Shown here: positions 6,248 to 59,745 of the stretch, piece after piece
Layout: every line of letters begins with the position of its first letter
Numbering within the stretch: the stretch's first letter is position 1
Assembly (NCBI RefSeq): GCF_035968265.1
Contig: NZ_JAVYIM010000004.1
Location: forward strand, 124,001 to 188,000
Length of the DNA stretch: 64,000 nt
Reading direction: 5' to 3'
Source of the DNA: Nitrosarchaeum sp.
Lineage (GTDB): Archaea; Thermoproteota; Nitrososphaeria; Nitrososphaerales; Nitrosopumilaceae
The notes under the pieces: model-generated
Database searches by the model: none
Seen by the model: the letters and a program-made list of their open reading frames with translations, nothing else
Told to the model about the DNA's origin: nothing
Program-made: the position numbers and the translations under genes

Positions 6248-6993
6248 ATTTTCATTAATGTCTCTTTTGCAAATGTAAAATCATTAGGTGATGTAACTAA
6301 TACGTCTCCTGAAATATTATGAATTTGTTTAATAAAATTAGATGGATTTTCTTTGTAATTTGACCAATCTAATTGCAAAAACTTTGCTGAATTATTGTTT
6401 TTATCTGAGGGTAATAATACACATGGAATAATTCTCAATCCTTTTGGTCTTAATTCGTTAGAAATTATTTGAACTTGTTCTGTAGAGTGAATTACTTGTG
6501 TCATGAAACCTTTTGGTTTGGCAGCAATTTTTTTCTGAATTTTCTCAAAGTTAGGGTTACTAGGTAATGACAAGAAAAAGTCAATTTTATTTCCATAACC
6601 TGACTCATTTAACTCCTTTACAACTTGGCTTGGAATTAGACCTGAATCTATTGGATTTTCTTTTGATGGATCTCCTTTTAAAATTAGAATCCCATCTAAT
6701 TTCAACTCTATTGATTCTTGTGTAAGATGCTTGATCAAATTCATGTCTTTGTCTCTCACTCTCATGCTGATGGTAATTTGCAAATTAGAATGAATATTTT
6801 TTAACAATCTTCCAATAGATAATGCTGAAACTCGTTTAGTGCCTAATACCGAATCTGTTACATGTATGCCGTCACAAAAATTACTGACGTCTGAAACTCT
6901 TTGTAGGAGTTTTTCAACTGATGCATTTATTTTGTCATCTGATGTTTCTCCATCAAGTATTTTTGGTGGATTTATTTCGTATATTATTGCCAC
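6244..6993 (-). CDS. metF: Methylenetetrahydrofolate reductase family protein
   Basis: Reduces methylene- to methyl-tetrahydrofolate (or an archaeal pterin), the methyl donor for the convergent MetH pair. About 249 aa, a TIM-barrel flavoprotein of the MTHFR family (YEINPPK near the start, GIHVTDSV, ILKGDPS). The open frame extends upstream to 7101, but those 36 residues are not MTHFR-like and overlap the Nudix gene. A GTG at 6993-6991 has GGAG about 7 nt upstream and starts exactly at the conserved region, so I use it. The context with metH supports the assignment. Confidence 0.85.
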   Translation of the reverse strand: MAIIYEINPPKILDGETSDDKINASVEKLLQRVSDVSNFCDGIHVTDSVLGTKRVSALSIGRLLKNIHSNLQITISMRVRDKDMNLIKHLTQESIELKLDGILILKGDPSKENPIDSGLIPSQVVKELNESGYGNKIDFFLSLPSNPNFEKIQKKIAAKPKGFMTQVIHSTEQVQIISNELRPKGLRIIPCVLLPSDKNNNSAKFLQLDWSNYKENPSNFIKQIHNISGDVLVTSPNDFTFAKETLMKI

Positions 6994-52656: not shown

Positions 52657-53028
52657 CTAGTTTTGTCTGTGATTTTGGAAACATTCTCTGCAATATACAG
52701 GTCTGTCGTCTTTTGGTTTGAATGGTATTTGACATTCGTTGCCACAGTCACCACAGGTTGCAGTAAACATTTCTCTTGGTCTATCATCTCTACTGAATCT
52801 GGAGCCTCTATCACTTGATCCTCTGCCATAACTTGATCTACCGCCATAACTTGATCTTCCGCCAAATCTAGAACCGCCGGAGCGTTCTTGAGGTTTATGC
52901 TTTTGGAAACATTCTCTGCAATATACAGGTCTGTCGTCTTTTGGTTTGAATGGTATTTGACATTCGTTGCCACAGTCACCACAGGTTGCAGTAAACATTT
53001 CTCTTGGGCCATCTCTATCGAAGGGCAT
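52657..53028 (-). CDS. Tandem CxxC-x17-CxxC zinc protein with Arg-Gly-Ser linker
   Basis: 123 aa. Two identical zinc units, each CGDC - 17 residues - CREC, with IPFKPKDDRPVY between the pairs. The linker is rich in Gly, Arg, Ser and Tyr (SRFGGRSSYGGRSSYGRG), like RGG RNA-binding regions. The spacing matches the CxxC-x17-CxxC domain family. Probably an RNA- or ribosome-associated zinc protein. The two units are encoded by an exact 107-bp repeat. Confidence 0.85.
   Translation of the reverse strand: MPFDRDGPREMFTATCGDCGNECQIPFKPKDDRPVYCRECFQKHKPQERSGGSRFGGRSSYGGRSSYGRGSSDRGSRFSRDDRPREMFTATCGDCGNECQIPFKPKDDRPVYCRECFQNHRQN
52673..52779. repeat. 107-bp perfect direct repeat, copy A
   Basis: Identical base for base to 52901-53007, with a 228-bp period, inside the CxxC-x17-CxxC gene. 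Even third codon positions are unchanged. Confidence 0.9.
52901..53007. repeat. 107-bp perfect direct repeat, copy B
   Basis: Second copy of the internal repeat; see 52673-52779. It encodes the N-terminal zinc unit. Confidence 0.9.
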
Positions 53029-54209: not shown

Positions 54210-55241
54210 CTAGGGTATCAATACTGCTCTTGCCTGAATTTGGGAGTCTTTTAGTTTCTTGAGCACTTCGTTTGCTTTTTCAAGAGGATAAGTCTCTGTA
54301 ATTACAGTTAGATTATTTTCATTGCATATCTTGATTACTTGTTCCATGTCTTTAGTTGAACCAATCACAGTTCCACGAATTGTCTTTTCCTCAAATGCAA
54401 AAAATGTAGGATTCTTTCCAACTGTTGCAATTACAATTAATCCTCCCTTCTTTACTGATTTTATTGCAACATCAGTTACTACATCTGCTGGTGCAAAAAC
54501 AATTGCAGCATCTAACATGCCATGCTTATTTTTTAACTCATCAAGAAATTCTTGTTTGTCTGAAAATACCATAGTATCCATTGCTCCTAATTTCTTTGCA
54601 ACATCTAGATGATTTTTACTACGTGAAAATGCAATAACTTTGGATCCTTCTACTTTGGCAAACTGTATTGCCATATGACCTACACCACCAATTCCAAATA
54701 TCCCAATCTTTTTGTGAGATTTTGGCTCTGCTGCTTTTACTGCTTTGTAAGCTGTAATCCCTGCACAAAATAATGGTGCTGCATACTCTGATTTCATTTT
54801 ATCTGGAATCTTTGTTGCAAAGTCTTGTGAAACTGTAATGTATTCTGAATATCCTCCTCTAAGTGATTCCCCTGTAATCTCTGAAGATTCACAAAGTTGT
54901 TCCTTACCTTCTTTACAATACTGACATGTTTTACAAGCTTCAAGTAGTGGAGTTATTCCAGCTCTGTCCCCTACTTTGAATTTAGTTACATTATTGCCAA
55001 TCTCAATAATTTTTCCTACCAATTCATGACCTGGAACTGTAGGTAAAGTCGGTGGAATTCCAATATCTTTCCAATCTCCTTCTATTCCATGGAGCTGAGA
55101 GTGGCAAACCCCGCAAGCCTCAATTTTTATTAAAATCTCATCTGGTCTTTTGATTTCATGTCTGTCCATTTCAGTTAATTTTAAAGGATTTGTCTCAATT
55201 GGTGCGCATTTAGATAGCACCATAGCTCGCATTTTACTCAT
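54210..55241 (-). CDS. Zinc-dependent alcohol dehydrogenase
   Basis: 343 aa MDR-family. Catalytic zinc motif CGVCHSQLHG (C42), GHELVGKI, structural zinc set CKTCQYCKEGKEQLC, and the nucleotide-binding GIFGIGGVGHMA. Medium-chain reductase for alcohol or aldehyde, NAD(P)-linked. Divergent from the nitroreductase, 104 bp apart. First gene of the redox neighbourhood. Confidence 0.9.
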   Translation of the reverse strand: MSKMRAMVLSKCAPIETNPLKLTEMDRHEIKRPDEILIKIEACGVCHSQLHGIEGDWKDIGIPPTLPTVPGHELVGKIIEIGNNVTKFKVGDRAGITPLLEACKTCQYCKEGKEQLCESSEITGESLRGGYSEYITVSQDFATKIPDKMKSEYAAPLFCAGITAYKAVKAAEPKSHKKIGIFGIGGVGHMAIQFAKVEGSKVIAFSRSKNHLDVAKKLGAMDTMVFSDKQEFLDELKNKHGMLDAAIVFAPADVVTDVAIKSVKKGGLIVIATVGKNPTFFAFEEKTIRGTVIGSTKDMEQVIKICNENNLTVITETYPLEKANEVLKKLKDSQIQARAVLIP

Positions 55242-55345
55242 ATTTAGCTGTTTTTTGCGTGAAATTTTAAGATTTATTCTTCATTATTCATCAAAATGAG
55301 AAATCCCCGATTACTTTTTTATGTATGATTTTGATATTTGAATTC

Positions 55346-56311
55346 ATGGTTTTTTCTAAAGTGGAACCATCTTATTTTTCAAAGGATGGATGTAGAATTG
55401 TTTGGAGTGGGATTGATGAAGATGATGTTGATACTGTTGTATTAAACAAAGATGAGCTAGACCAATTAGTTGAAATTCTAAAAAATAATAACGTAGGTAA
55501 AGTAGAACTGGAAGATAATTTTAGTGAAATTTTAATAAATTCTGATGTTGTTCAGTTTAGACTAAAAGACAGAGATCAGCTTGAAGCAAATGCAAGAGAC
55601 TTTAGAGAAAAAATTTTAGAATATGCAAAAATTCCACATGATCCATTGTACGTTCAAGTCTTTCCAAAAGAATTCTATCCATCAGTATGGATTCAAAAAG
55701 ACGATGATCCAAAACCATCTGAAAAAAAATCTCAAAAACCGACATCCCTTCTTAATGCAATACTATCAAACAAAACAAAAGGAGTTGAAATATCTGAATC
55801 TGATATATTTAGAATTATTTCTACAAGACGCTCTACACGAAAATTTTCTAAAACAAAGGTTGAAGACTGGAAGATTGAAAAGATTTTGGCAGCAGCTGAT
55901 ACTGCTCCTTCTGCTGGAAACTTTCAGGGATTAGAAGTATTTTATGTAAAAAGTAAAAAAGCAAAAGAGGCACTTGTGGAGGCTGCAAATCGTCAACCGT
56001 TTGTTAATGCTCCTTTGGTTTTGGTTTTTTGTATGAATCCTAGTAGGGTAAAGATGAATTTCTCACCTGAAATGCTTGCAAAGTTTTCTCTACAAGATGC
56101 TACTTTGGCTGCATCTTACTCTCAACTGGTAGCCACAGCTTTGGGATTAAGCTCTATCTGGATTGGAATGATTGATGAAGATAAAGTAAAACAAGTTCTT
56201 GGAACCGATTTGAGACCGTCATCTATTCTCTGTATTGGTTATCCTGATATTCGTAAATCTCCAAAATCAAGACGTAAACTAAAAGATCTAATTCATGTTT
56301 TAGAGGATTAA
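55346..56311 (+). CDS. Nitroreductase-family protein with N-terminal extension
   Basis: About 321 aa from ATG 55346 (frame open to 55325). Residues 1-140 form an unrecognised domain (KVEPSYFSKDGCRIVWSGI, FYPSVWIQKDD). Residues 155-320 are a nitroreductase/FMN fold: STRRSTRKFSKTKVED, AADTAPSAGNFQGLEV, ATALGLSSIWIGM. It would use FMN and NAD(P)H on nitro, quinone or other electron-poor substrates. Length is far above usual nitroreductases (about 200). Confidence 0.82.
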   Translation: MVFSKVEPSYFSKDGCRIVWSGIDEDDVDTVVLNKDELDQLVEILKNNNVGKVELEDNFSEILINSDVVQFRLKDRDQLEANARDFREKILEYAKIPHDPLYVQVFPKEFYPSVWIQKDDDPKPSEKKSQKPTSLLNAILSNKTKGVEISESDIFRIISTRRSTRKFSKTKVEDWKIEKILAAADTAPSAGNFQGLEVFYVKSKKAKEALVEAANRQPFVNAPLVLVFCMNPSRVKMNFSPEMLAKFSLQDATLAASYSQLVATALGLSSIWIGMIDEDKVKQVLGTDLRPSSILCIGYPDIRKSPKSRRKLKDLIHVLED

Positions 56312-56364
56312 CATTCTGAAAATAATCGTCATTATATTGTTGAATTACTAATACTAATGCGGAT

Positions 56365-57216
56365 ATGATTCCTATTGATCAAAATGCCAAGATAGGTCAA
56401 GTTCATCTTAGGGTATCTGACATTAATCTATCTCTGGAATTTTACAAATCCTTTCTTGGTTTTAAAATAGTTGAACAAACAGATCACGCTGTATTTCTTT
56501 CATCTGATGGTAAAATGCCTTATCTTGTTGCTCTTTCTACAGCCAAACCTGTTGATTTAACTCAAAGAGCAGGACTGTATCATTTTGCAATACTACTCCC
56601 ACAAAGAAAAGACTTGGCCGATTTTCTTTCACATTTACTAAAACACAAAGATGAGATACACATAGATGGTTTTTCAGACCATCTTGTATCTGAAGCAATT
56701 TACATTCGTGATCCAGATAATATTGGAATAGAAATTTATTGTGATAGAATACCTTCTGACTGGAAATGGAATGATAATCAAGTAATTATGTCGATAGAGC
56801 CACTTGATATGGAAGGATTGCTTGCCGAATCAACCAAATCCTGGAATGAATTTCCATCTGATACATCAATAGGACATGTTCATCTACATGTATCAAATCT
56901 TGCAAATGCAAAAAAATTCTATTCAGAAGTTTTAGGTTTTTCAATCACTGCAAGCATGAAAAATGCGTTATTTTTTGCAGCAGGAAAGTATCATCATCAT
57001 ATTGCCACTAATACTTGGCTTGGAGAAGATATATCACAAGCATCAACAGAATTTGCAGGACTGGATTATTTTACAATTCAATTTTCAAGCAGAGACAAAC
57101 TAGAAAATGCGATCAAAAAATTGAAATCTTCTAAAATATATGTCAATCAATTAGAAGATGGCTCATTTAGTATATTTGATGAAGATAAAATATCAATTCA
57201 TTTGACTGTAAAATGA
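56365..57216 (+). CDS. VOC-superfamily extradiol-dioxygenase-like protein
   Basis: 283 aa, two tandem VOC halves. Each starts with GQVHLRVSDINLSLEFYKS or GHVHLHVSNLANAKKFYSE; the active half shows metal ligands around H13, H73 (LYHFAIL) and E122 (GIEIYCD). It resembles CatE catechol-2,3-dioxygenase. Ring-cleaving or glyoxalase-like activity; substrate unknown. Lies 53 nt after the nitroreductase. Confidence 0.8.
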   Translation: MIPIDQNAKIGQVHLRVSDINLSLEFYKSFLGFKIVEQTDHAVFLSSDGKMPYLVALSTAKPVDLTQRAGLYHFAILLPQRKDLADFLSHLLKHKDEIHIDGFSDHLVSEAIYIRDPDNIGIEIYCDRIPSDWKWNDNQVIMSIEPLDMEGLLAESTKSWNEFPSDTSIGHVHLHVSNLANAKKFYSEVLGFSITASMKNALFFAAGKYHHHIATNTWLGEDISQASTEFAGLDYFTIQFSSRDKLENAIKKLKSSKIYVNQLEDGSFSIFDEDKISIHLTVK

Positions 57217-57232
57217 TCAGATTATCGTGGTA

Positions 57233-57265
57233 AGGTTATTCTAACCTACTAAGTAAGTAATTACT
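57233..57265 (+). promoter_or_regulatory. Inverted repeats in the pirin promoter
   Basis: AGGTTA-ttc-TAACCT (57233-57247) and the 10-bp palindrome AGTAATTACT (57256-57265) sit just upstream of the TATA box TTTAAATA (57272-57279). Best explained as operators, possibly for the HxlR product encoded downstream. Confidence 0.45.
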
Positions 57266-57271
57266 ACCATC

Positions 57272-57279
57272 TTTAAATA
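57272..57279 (+). promoter_or_regulatory. TATA box of the pirin gene
   Basis: TTTAAATA with centre 26 nt upstream of the ATG at 57301, implying a leaderless transcript. Confidence 0.6.
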
Positions 57280-57300
57280 ATTGACAGTGTATACTATATC

Positions 57301-58215
57301 ATGAAACAAAACACAATAAATCAAAATCTAGTAAAAAATACAACAAAGACTCGCTCAGTATTACAAGTTACTAATGCAAAAACAACATTAGAAGGCGAAG
57401 GATTTGTGGTACACAGAGCATTTCCAAATGGCAGTCTTCGAGAAGTTGATCCGTTTCTTTTGTTAGACGAGATGGGCCCCATTGAAATATCTGCTGGAGA
57501 AGCTAAAGGTGCACCAGATCATCCGCATAGAGGATTTGAAACTGTCACATACATGATTGATGGCGTATTTGAACACAAAGACTCGCAAGGCCATTCTGGA
57601 AAAATAAAGGCAGGTGACATTCAATGGATGACCGCAGGTTCTGGTGTCATTCATTCAGAGATGCCAGAAAAAGAATTTTCACAGAAGGGTGGAACATTAC
57701 ATGGATTTCAGTTATGGGTAAACTTGCCAAAAAAAGACAAGATGATGAACCCACGCTATCAGGATTTACCAGCAAACAAAATTCCAATTGCACAAAAGGA
57801 TGGTGTTAAGGTTAAAGTAATTGCAGGAGAATCAATGGGAGAAAAAGCAATCATCGATACACGAACTCCTATCATATATCTTCATTTTACTTTACAACCA
57901 AATGCCAAAGTAACACAAACTATTCCACAAAACTATAATGCATTTGCATATGTCATAAATGGAGAAGGATTGTTTGGAGACAAACAAATTTCTGCTCACA
58001 AAGAACAGATTGTTTTATTTGAACAAGATGGAAATGAGATAACCATTAAAGCCTCAGATGAGATGTCGTCACCTTTGGATGTACTCTTAATTGCAGGTAT
58101 TCCCTTAGGCGAACCTGTTGCTCGTTATGGACCATTTGTGATGAACACTGAAGATGAAATTAAACAAGCAATACTAGATTACAACACTGGGAAGATGGGT
58201 AAAATTGACTTTTAA
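57301..58215 (+). CDS. Pirin-family protein
   Basis: 304-aa double cupin. Metal site DHPHRGFETVTYMIDG (H, H), then GSGVIHSEMPE with the third His and Glu; the second cupin lacks ligands, as usual. Bacterial pirins can open quercetin-type flavonols or act as redox sensors. Full length. Carries its own TATA box and operators. Confidence 0.88.
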   Translation: MKQNTINQNLVKNTTKTRSVLQVTNAKTTLEGEGFVVHRAFPNGSLREVDPFLLLDEMGPIEISAGEAKGAPDHPHRGFETVTYMIDGVFEHKDSQGHSGKIKAGDIQWMTAGSGVIHSEMPEKEFSQKGGTLHGFQLWVNLPKKDKMMNPRYQDLPANKIPIAQKDGVKVKVIAGESMGEKAIIDTRTPIIYLHFTLQPNAKVTQTIPQNYNAFAYVINGEGLFGDKQISAHKEQIVLFEQDGNEITIKASDEMSSPLDVLLIAGIPLGEPVARYGPFVMNTEDEIKQAILDYNTGKMGKIDF

Positions 58216-58282
58216 AATAAATTCAATTCTAAACTTATTCCCACAATCACTTTTTTAATTAGATAGTATTTTGCTACTTGGT

Positions 58283-58636
58283 ATGGAAACTGAATTTGAA
58301 AAAGAGGCAAGAACTCGTAATCACGTAGAATGTCAAGCTGATGAAATATGGAGCGTTCTTGGAAAGACTTGGGCTCTGTTGATATTGAAAAAACTTTCAG
58401 AAAGTAAATCCACGCGATTCAATGAAATAAAAAAAGCCATACCTATGATAAGTAATACCGTATTATCTGAGAGATTACGTGATCTTGAAATACACAATTT
58501 AATTGTAAAAAAAATTTATGCCCAAGTACCAATACGTGTTGAATACAGTATAACAAAACAGGCACAAGATCTTGGGAAAATTCTAAAACAGCTTGATAAA
58601 TGGGTTGAACAAAGAAGAAAAACTCAGAAACAATGA
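58283..58636 (+). CDS. HxlR/DUF24 winged-helix regulator
   Basis: 117 aa from ATG 58283; a TTG at 58271 adds four residues, but the T-rich box TTTTTTAATTA at 58252-58262 favours the later start. The conserved N-terminal cysteine is C17 (HVECQADEIW), followed by VLGKTWALLILKKL and the DNA-reading helix with ISNTVLSERLRDLE. In bacterial relatives (HxlR, YodB, CatR) this cysteine senses quinones or formaldehyde. Confidence 0.85.
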   Translation: METEFEKEARTRNHVECQADEIWSVLGKTWALLILKKLSESKSTRFNEIKKAIPMISNTVLSERLRDLEIHNLIVKKIYAQVPIRVEYSITKQAQDLGKILKQLDKWVEQRRKTQKQ

Positions 58637-58676
58637 GTAAATTATCTTACCATTAAATAATATACAAATTTGGAAA

Positions 58677-59135
58677 ATGTTTTTATCTCTTCAAGTGTAT
58701 AATACAGCCTTGTCAAAAAACACCAAACCCGATGAATCTCCAATTTCAATTTGTGATATTATGAAAAACAGGACATCTGAAATAGTTAAAAAAATGGAAT
58801 GTCAACTACCATTAACTGTGCAACAATATTCTGATTTGTATACTGCATATCTTCACTCTTTTGATGACATGTTTGGCACATGTTATATATCGCAAAAAGA
58901 ATTCTTTGACAAGCTAAACATTCCCCAAGAAACTTTGAAGGAATTTGACAAATATCTAGAGTCATTAAGTAAATCATATCAAAATTGGATTGATTTGGGC
59001 TCAAAATATGGTCAGTCATATGTGGAAACAAAATTATCTATGGTAAAATCATATGATCAATTTGTTCACATTGCAATGAATTCATTTGCTCAAACTTGGG
59101 CAAAATTCAACGAAATTAATAATTGCAAGTCCTAG
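58677..59135 (+). CDS. Hypothetical helical protein (phasin-like composition)
   Basis: 152 aa, aromatic-rich and helical (LTVQQYSDLYTAYLHSFDDMFG, SYQNWIDLGSKYGQSYV). No signal or membrane span. Helical phasins that coat polyester granules look like this, but no motif confirms it. Same strand as HxlR, 40 nt downstream. Confidence 0.55.
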   Translation: MFLSLQVYNTALSKNTKPDESPISICDIMKNRTSEIVKKMECQLPLTVQQYSDLYTAYLHSFDDMFGTCYISQKEFFDKLNIPQETLKEFDKYLESLSKSYQNWIDLGSKYGQSYVETKLSMVKSYDQFVHIAMNSFAQTWAKFNEINNCKS

Positions 59136-59169
59136 AAAACTTGTTAAATAACAATTACTGAATTTATTT

Positions 59170-59745
59170 ATGATTCCAAAAATACTTGCATTTGCAGGTA
59201 GCACTAGAACGGATTCATTTAACAAAAAGCTAGTCAAAATAGCAGCTGCTGGAGCAAAAGAAGCAGGTGCAGATGTAACAATAATTGATCTTCGTGATTA
59301 CCCGATGCCACTTTATGACGAAGATTTAGAAAAAAAAGAAGGATTACCATCTAACACACGTAAACTAAAAGAATTGATGTTGTCTCATCATGGATTTCTA
59401 ATATCCTCTCCAGAGTATAACAGTTCAATTTCTGGTGTTCTCAAAAACACAATTGATTGGACATCAAGACAAGGCGATGATGAATCACCAATGTCTTGTT
59501 TTAAAGATAAAGTGGCTGGAATAATGAGTGCATCACCTGGTGGATTGGGAGGATTGCGAGGATTAGTTCATGTTCGTGCAATTCTTGAAAATATGGGCGT
59601 ACTTGTAATTCCAACTCAAGTAGCAATATCAAAAGCTCACGAAGCTTTCAATTTGGATGGAACTATGAAAGATCAAAAACAAGAACAGCAAGTAAAAAAG
59701 ATCGGTGCTAATCTATCTCAAATGTTAATGAAATTAAATAATTAA
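59170..59745 (+). CDS. NADPH-dependent FMN reductase
   Basis: 191-aa flavodoxin-fold oxidoreductase of the ArsH/ChrR/YieF type. GSTRTDSFNKKL binds FMN phosphate, PEYNSSISGVLKNTIDW and SPGGLGGLRG complete the flavin site. Reduces quinones, chromate or azo compounds in relatives. Fits the detoxification theme of the neighbours. Confidence 0.88.
   Translation: MIPKILAFAGSTRTDSFNKKLVKIAAAGAKEAGADVTIIDLRDYPMPLYDEDLEKKEGLPSNTRKLKELMLSHHGFLISSPEYNSSISGVLKNTIDWTSRQGDDESPMSCFKDKVAGIMSASPGGLGGLRGLVHVRAILENMGVLVIPTQVAISKAHEAFNLDGTMKDQKQEQQVKKIGANLSQMLMKLNN

Follow-up and report, generated by a model that had tools for sequence, protein, structure and literature searches.

The question raised by this locus is how far the control exerted by a small regulator extends into the genes around it. 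Within a window of 64,000 nucleotides, taken from contig 4 of a 1.53 Mb Nitrosarchaeum sp. genome whose nearest named relatives are Nitrosarchaeum and Nitrosopumilus metagenome-assembled genomes (MAGs), an HxlR/DUF24 regulator lies among genes for a Zn alcohol dehydrogenase (ADH), an extended nitroreductase-domain protein (NTR), a two-domain VOC protein, a pirin and an FMN reductase. An earlier reading of the sequence, referred to here as the original prediction, took these six genes for a single detoxification module centred on the regulator. The analysis presented here points to a smaller functional unit, the regulator gene hxlR together with the pirin gene: HxlR, switched through its cysteine C17, probably binds a 20-bp site before pirin and, in this genus, also before its own gene.

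When the upstream regions are aligned, a 20-bp block ahead of pirin remains unchanged between diverging flanks, and hxlR is preceded by a similar one. These two candidate operators lie on opposite strands and are identical at 15 of 20 positions (Table 1); the intergenic regions 57216-57301 and 58215-58283, which the original prediction had picked out, each hold one copy. The pattern shared by the two, TAGTANTTNNNTACTNNGTA, has exactly two exact matches genome-wide, which are operators 1 and 2. The exact matches in three relatives (G008, G014 and G017) are likewise the pirin and hxlR sites only, and in a fourth (G006) these two sites stand first among the matches listed. A scan of the window at up to three mismatches gave 8 matches where 8.04 are expected, and at up to two mismatches genome-wide there are 25 matches versus 88 for the reversed pattern. 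Since loose matches stay at chance level, the claim for an operator is based on the exact matches and on conservation. A semi-conserved inverted repeat upstream of operator 1 is a possible second site.

The pair and its element were then followed in an order-wide sample of 400 genomes, using cut-offs of E<=1e-22 for hxlR and E<=1e-50 for pirin. hxlR is found in 74 of these genomes, pirin in 61 and both in 42; in 24 of the 42 the two genes lie within 2 kb of each other, in tandem or divergently. A consensus, TAGTARTTWMNTACYTAGTW, was drawn up from the sites known by then and searched in the 400 genomes with the reversed pattern as control, giving 30 matches in 29 genomes as against 4 for the control. 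All but one of the element-bearing genomes (28/29) encode hxlR (Fisher p ~6e-22, kinship ignored). Just downstream of 28 of the 30 sites is a pirin gene, which belongs either to the same subfamily as the window's pirin or to another that is ~30-35% identical to it and carries a Pirin_C_2 domain. One site (G222, L155) precedes a luciferase-like flavin oxidoreductase, a family assigned by eye from the translation, whose gene (L155 421-1464) starts 36 bp after the operator and is adjoined by hxlR, downstream on the same strand, with no pirin; one site falls at a contig end. In 29 of the 30 sites the distance to the following TATA box is identical, and a start codon comes ~32-36 bp after the element. 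Several genomes have the element as a well-formed inverted repeat of TTACTAC half-sites, which would suit binding by a dimer.

Among the pirin-bearing genomes the exact operator tracks the adjacency of hxlR, being present in 18/24 with adjacent genes versus 1/18 with non-adjacent ones. The pirins of G007 and G034, genomes without a close hxlR orthologue, are not preceded by the operator; at the corresponding position before the pirin of G057, where hxlR lies elsewhere, there is a degenerate copy. In a tree of the regulators, whose support values were not examined, the operator persists as the linked gene switches between the two pirin subfamilies and the luciferase-like gene. Sites resembling operator 2 before hxlR itself are exact in G006, G008, G014 and G017 and degenerate outside the genus. 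Two further loci may be recorded. The pirin start of G034 (L046 ~6600-6765) overlaps the apparent end of a gene for a different winged-helix regulator, where the operator is absent. G178, a MAG of a distant family with a pirin-hxlR pair of its own, also has on contig 158 (L156) a pirin fragment 91-92% identical to that of the window, with the operator; this is probably a contaminating contig, possibly a transfer.

The regulator is assigned to its family well above the curated cut-off (PF01638, E=8e-25, 86.9 bits with a cut-off of 20.8). The solved HxlR, YodB and QsrR structures are those of its relatives, and the best PDB match by sequence is B. subtilis HxlR (7bze/7bzd). The open reading frame (ORF) list gives a TTG start at 58271; the conserved start is the ATG at 58283. 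C17, the N-terminal cysteine named in the original prediction, is the only cysteine of the protein, and the check on its conservation bore out this part of the prediction, C17 being invariant in 33/33 aligned homologues. The N-terminal cysteine in DUF24 proteins senses electrophiles or oxidants (PMC7835342, PMC6798810, PMC8063818); C17 corresponds to it, and by analogy the regulator would be a thiol sensor. With no second cysteine the protein cannot form a Cys6-Cys101 disulfide like that of YodB, and the chemistries that remain for C17 are S-alkylation, a C17-C17' disulfide and a mixed disulfide. The formaldehyde bridge of B. subtilis HxlR requires a lysine two residues past the cysteine (PMC7835342). 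Here the residues are C17-Q18-A19; at Cys+2 nearly all homologues have Ala, Val or Ile, and none of those aligned has Lys. On these grounds formaldehyde sensing via Cys-x-Lys was rejected, and with this lysine absent a response through the known HxlR route is unlikely. A second gene of the HxlR family is present in the same genome (G000:C2:325396-325665, L002); it is distant, with ~30% identity.

The pirin has both domains of its family (PF02678, E=6e-36; PF05726, E=8e-32) and is close by sequence to human pirin (E ~1e-69) and to E. coli YhaK (E=2e-57). In the alignment, the four metal ligands of human pirin (H56/H58/H101/E103) are kept as H74/H76/H118/E120, which suggests a metal cupin whose ligands are those of human pirin and YhaK.

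In the mechanism proposed here, HxlR would act as a winged-helix dimer, each subunit carrying one reactive cysteine, and would bind the 20-bp dyad upstream of pirin and, in the window's genus, a second one over its own start site. Autorepression of hxlR is predicted because operator 2 sits between the TATA-like stretch and the start codon, so that its occupancy would block transcription. Archaeal activators usually bind just upstream of the transcription factor B recognition element (BRE) and TATA box. Operator 1 directly precedes BRE/TATA, with constant spacing, in just such a position, and activation at pirin is therefore favoured and is judged somewhat more probable than repression. The invariant spacing before different target genes suggests a contact with TFB/TBP, through which HxlR at operator 1 would activate. 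The family offers a precedent, as B. subtilis HxlR is an activator (PMC7835342). The switch would be thrown when an electrophile or oxidant modifies C17, and the pirin would be the effector, as an enzyme or a redox protein. Judged from these sequence features, this is most likely a DUF24 regulator that senses through its thiol and controls a very small regulon, namely pirin and itself. A more tentative proposal, placed a little below an even balance, is that ammonia-oxidising archaea share a one-cysteine HxlR unit that activates from a site at constant distance to the TATA box, in which regulator and operator are kept and the enzyme is exchanged; the exchanged enzymes would be the pirins of subfamilies A and B and the luciferase-like oxidoreductase.

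The surrounding genes are listed in Table 1. All six genes named in the original prediction are present, and their families were confirmed by ORFs and Pfam domains; as an inventory the list was incomplete, in that a seventh gene, for a phasin-like protein, had been overlooked.

Table 1. Genes and promoter elements of the pirin-hxlR region (positions in the window).
Feature	Position	Strand	Basis or remark
Zn alcohol dehydrogenase (ADH)	54210-55241	minus	PF08240/PF00107
Extended nitroreductase-domain protein (NTR), 320 aa, PF00881 domain C-terminal	55349-56311	plus	
Two-domain VOC protein	56365-57216	plus	PF00903
Inverted repeat AGGTTAttcTAACCT, semi-conserved (GGTTANNNTANCC)	57233-57247	plus	Upstream of operator 1; alignment, information profile
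Operator 1, TAGTAATTACTTACTTAGTA	57247-57266	minus	Before pirin, 5 bp ahead of TATA box; footprint
Pirin TATA box TTTAAATAA	57272-57280	plus	Invariant in pirin promoter alignment
Pirin, 304 aa, human-pirin/YhaK type	57301-58215	plus	PF02678/PF05726
hxlR TATA-like stretch TTTTTTAATTA, TTTTTATAATTA in relatives	58251-58261	plus	hxlR upstream alignment
Operator 2, TAGTATTTTGCTACTTGGTA	58264-58283	plus	Between hxlR TATA-like stretch and start codon
HxlR/DUF24 regulator, 117 aa, single cysteine C17	58283-58636	plus	PF01638
Phasin-like protein, 152 aa	58677-59135	plus	Homologue in L126
NADPH-dependent FMN reductase	59170-59745	plus	PF03358, E=1e-46

Each gene was mapped in 61 genomes and the neighbourhoods were then inspected. 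All six genes occur together only in the window's genome, and the order ADH-NTR-(VOC)-pirin-hxlR-phasin-FMN recurs in just two genomes, both very close relatives (G006 and G014), with no VOC gene at that place. G008 has pirin-hxlR-phasin-FMN in a different context, with a VOC gene (67% identical) ~1 kb upstream; Nitrosotalea sp. FS (L055) and another thaumarchaeal MAG (L056) have pirin and hxlR and no other members of the set. The ADH belongs to the core genes of ammonia-oxidising archaea, with a homologue in all 61 genomes and a close orthologue, mostly elsewhere, in about half; in that of G008 (G008:C1:754140-755160) stops and a change of frame break up the coding sequence, either through recent pseudogenisation or through a sequencing error. 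The NTR has about nine close full-length orthologues and is linked to pirin only in G006 and G014. The position of the VOC gene varies: it is 93 kb away in G014, absent in G006 and duplicated in G001. Close orthologues of the FMN reductase are found in G007, G015, G020, G022 and G025, all of them without a close hxlR orthologue; the gene has a promoter of its own without the operator, and this promoter is conserved in G007. The phasin-like gene and the FMN reductase form a conserved pair, found also in G015 without hxlR, and the phasin-like gene lies outside the regulator-operator unit. A homologue of this gene, 35% identical, lies near PhaC/PhaE genes in another archaeal genome (L126), and its protein gave no significant match in Pfam or NCBIfam, phasin and PhaE models included.

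Because the neighbourhoods differ in this way among relatives, the supposed module resolves into three independent pieces (ADH/NTR, pirin-hxlR and phasin-FMN) and a movable VOC gene. The six-gene detoxification module was rejected by synteny: the full set is confined to one genome and its parts are mostly apart in relatives, conservation of the neighbourhood holding for pirin and HxlR and failing for ADH, NTR, VOC and FMN reductase. The same four genes do not appear to belong to the HxlR regulon as had been suggested, since they have no exact operator and stand elsewhere in relatives, often without the regulator. The expected regulon of dioxygenase, nitroreductase and azoreductase genes responding to quinones, on the pattern of YodB and CatR, matches neither in content nor in conserved linkage. 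As for the VOC protein, its N-terminal module has a complete H/H/E metal triad, read from the sequence (H14/H73/E123), and its C-terminal module, where catalysis takes place in classical two-domain extradiol dioxygenases, has H173/Y235/H279. The HpaD and catechol_2_3 models lie far below their cut-offs; with no C-terminal H/H/E and a sole PDB relative that is marginal, the label 'CatE-like' is weakly supported, B. subtilis CatE not itself having been compared. Further out, the minus strand at 52657-53028 encodes a small CxxC zinc-ribbon-like protein made of two nearly identical halves (PREMFTATCGDCGNECQIPFKPKDDRPVYCRECFQ twice), which is 100% identical in G006 and G014.

Several observations weigh against the pirin-hxlR unit as described. 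The two genes are non-adjacent in 18 of the 42 genomes that have both, some adjacent pairs are without an exact operator, and outside the window's genus a clear self-site before hxlR is confined to a close MAG. The motif is no commoner than chance at two or three mismatches. The order-wide counts ignore relatedness between genomes, and the association of element and hxlR is partly circular because the consensus was written in part from known sites; the sites new to the consensus number 8, in 7 genomes, six of them before pirin, one before the luciferase-like gene and one at the contig end. Finally, G001 keeps an exact operator at its pirin (contig 26, L039) despite a broken hxlR-like copy. That copy (contig 12, L038/L057) has internal stops and is ~63% identical, and it reads as a recent loss of the regulator. 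It could also be that the conserved block is the site of another factor, or a special core-promoter element, with hxlR merely nearby. The survival of the element in G001 and its place beside BRE/TATA would both suit this explanation, which we nevertheless consider unlikely: hxlR is far more frequent among the element-bearing genomes than in the sample overall, one element stands before a non-pirin gene adjoining hxlR, the pirins of G007 and G034, without the regulator, are also without the element, and in the window's genus a second copy lies in the promoter of hxlR itself.

If HxlR does bind the element, it may instead simply repress pirin until modification of C17 releases it, like YodB, CatR and QsrR. 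The quinone-sensing DUF24 proteins studied so far are repressors (PMC6798810), a protein beside the BRE could block TFB, and a site in a repressive position is seen at hxlR itself. The invariant spacing of operator and TATA box before three kinds of gene exceeds what a blocker would need. We hold plain repression to be a serious possibility, though not the probable explanation. A single quinone/electrophile regulon of all six genes, controlled by HxlR in the manner of YodB and CatR, would fit their adjacency here and the conservation of C17, and a Sulfitobacter plasmid offers comparable company (DoxX-VOC-GST-pirin-WrbA); given that ADH, NTR, VOC and FMN reductase are unlinked in most relatives and are without the operator, and that the FMN reductase promoter is conserved where a close hxlR orthologue is missing, it is distinctly improbable. 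A sensor of formaldehyde (hydroxymethyl) on the model of B. subtilis HxlR, partnered by the ADH for detoxification, would fit the shared family and the best PDB match, which is HxlR itself; with Ala in place of the required Lys, and with an ADH that is unlinked in most relatives and outside the operator set, this is very improbable.

Comparison with known systems places the preferred unit of hxlR and pirin between several of them. With YodB, CatR and QsrR of Firmicutes the regulator shares its family, its fold class and one conserved N-terminal cysteine as the probable sensor, as well as the arrangement of a small regulator, here predicted to be autoregulated, beside its target gene. It differs from them in its predicted regulon (pirin and hxlR in place of genes for a dioxygenase, a nitroreductase and an azoreductase), in a site placed upstream of BRE/TATA at a fixed spacing within an archaeal transcription machinery and, from YodB, in the missing partner for a Cys6-Cys101 disulfide. 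B. subtilis HxlR is the closest sequence match in the PDB and the precedent for activation; unlike it, the archaeal protein is without the lysine for the methylene bridge and there are no adjacent formaldehyde pathway genes of the hxlAB type. The pirin has the same two cupin domains as E. coli YhaK and human pirin, with the four metal ligands of the latter, and unlike them it is under predicted DUF24 control; E. coli yhaK adjoins the LysR-type gene yhaJ. In the Sulfitobacter plasmid cluster (L158 1026-4541), pirin similarly lies near a VOC gene of two-domain size and a flavodoxin-like quinone reductase; that cluster differs in having no HxlR gene in its annotated neighbourhood, and it is not known to have an operator. 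Since none of five plasmid pirin neighbourhoods has an annotated HxlR neighbour, the pairing is not claimed to be general in bacteria. No paper naming both HxlR and pirin was found in the open library searched, which omits most subscription journals. For pirin in its literature on ammonia-oxidising archaea the sole match was the author name Pirinen, and in a thaumarchaeal paper on mobile elements HxlR occurs only as the label of a provirus gene.

Little is known of how stress genes are regulated in ammonia-oxidising archaea, and the locus provides a regulator, an exact candidate site, a main target and a candidate sensing residue. It would also tie pirin, which is poorly understood in microbes, to a thiol-type sensor in archaea. 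If ammonia-oxidising archaea do share such a unit with exchanged enzymes, it would represent a conserved archaeal thiol-stress switch with a regulon of one or two genes.

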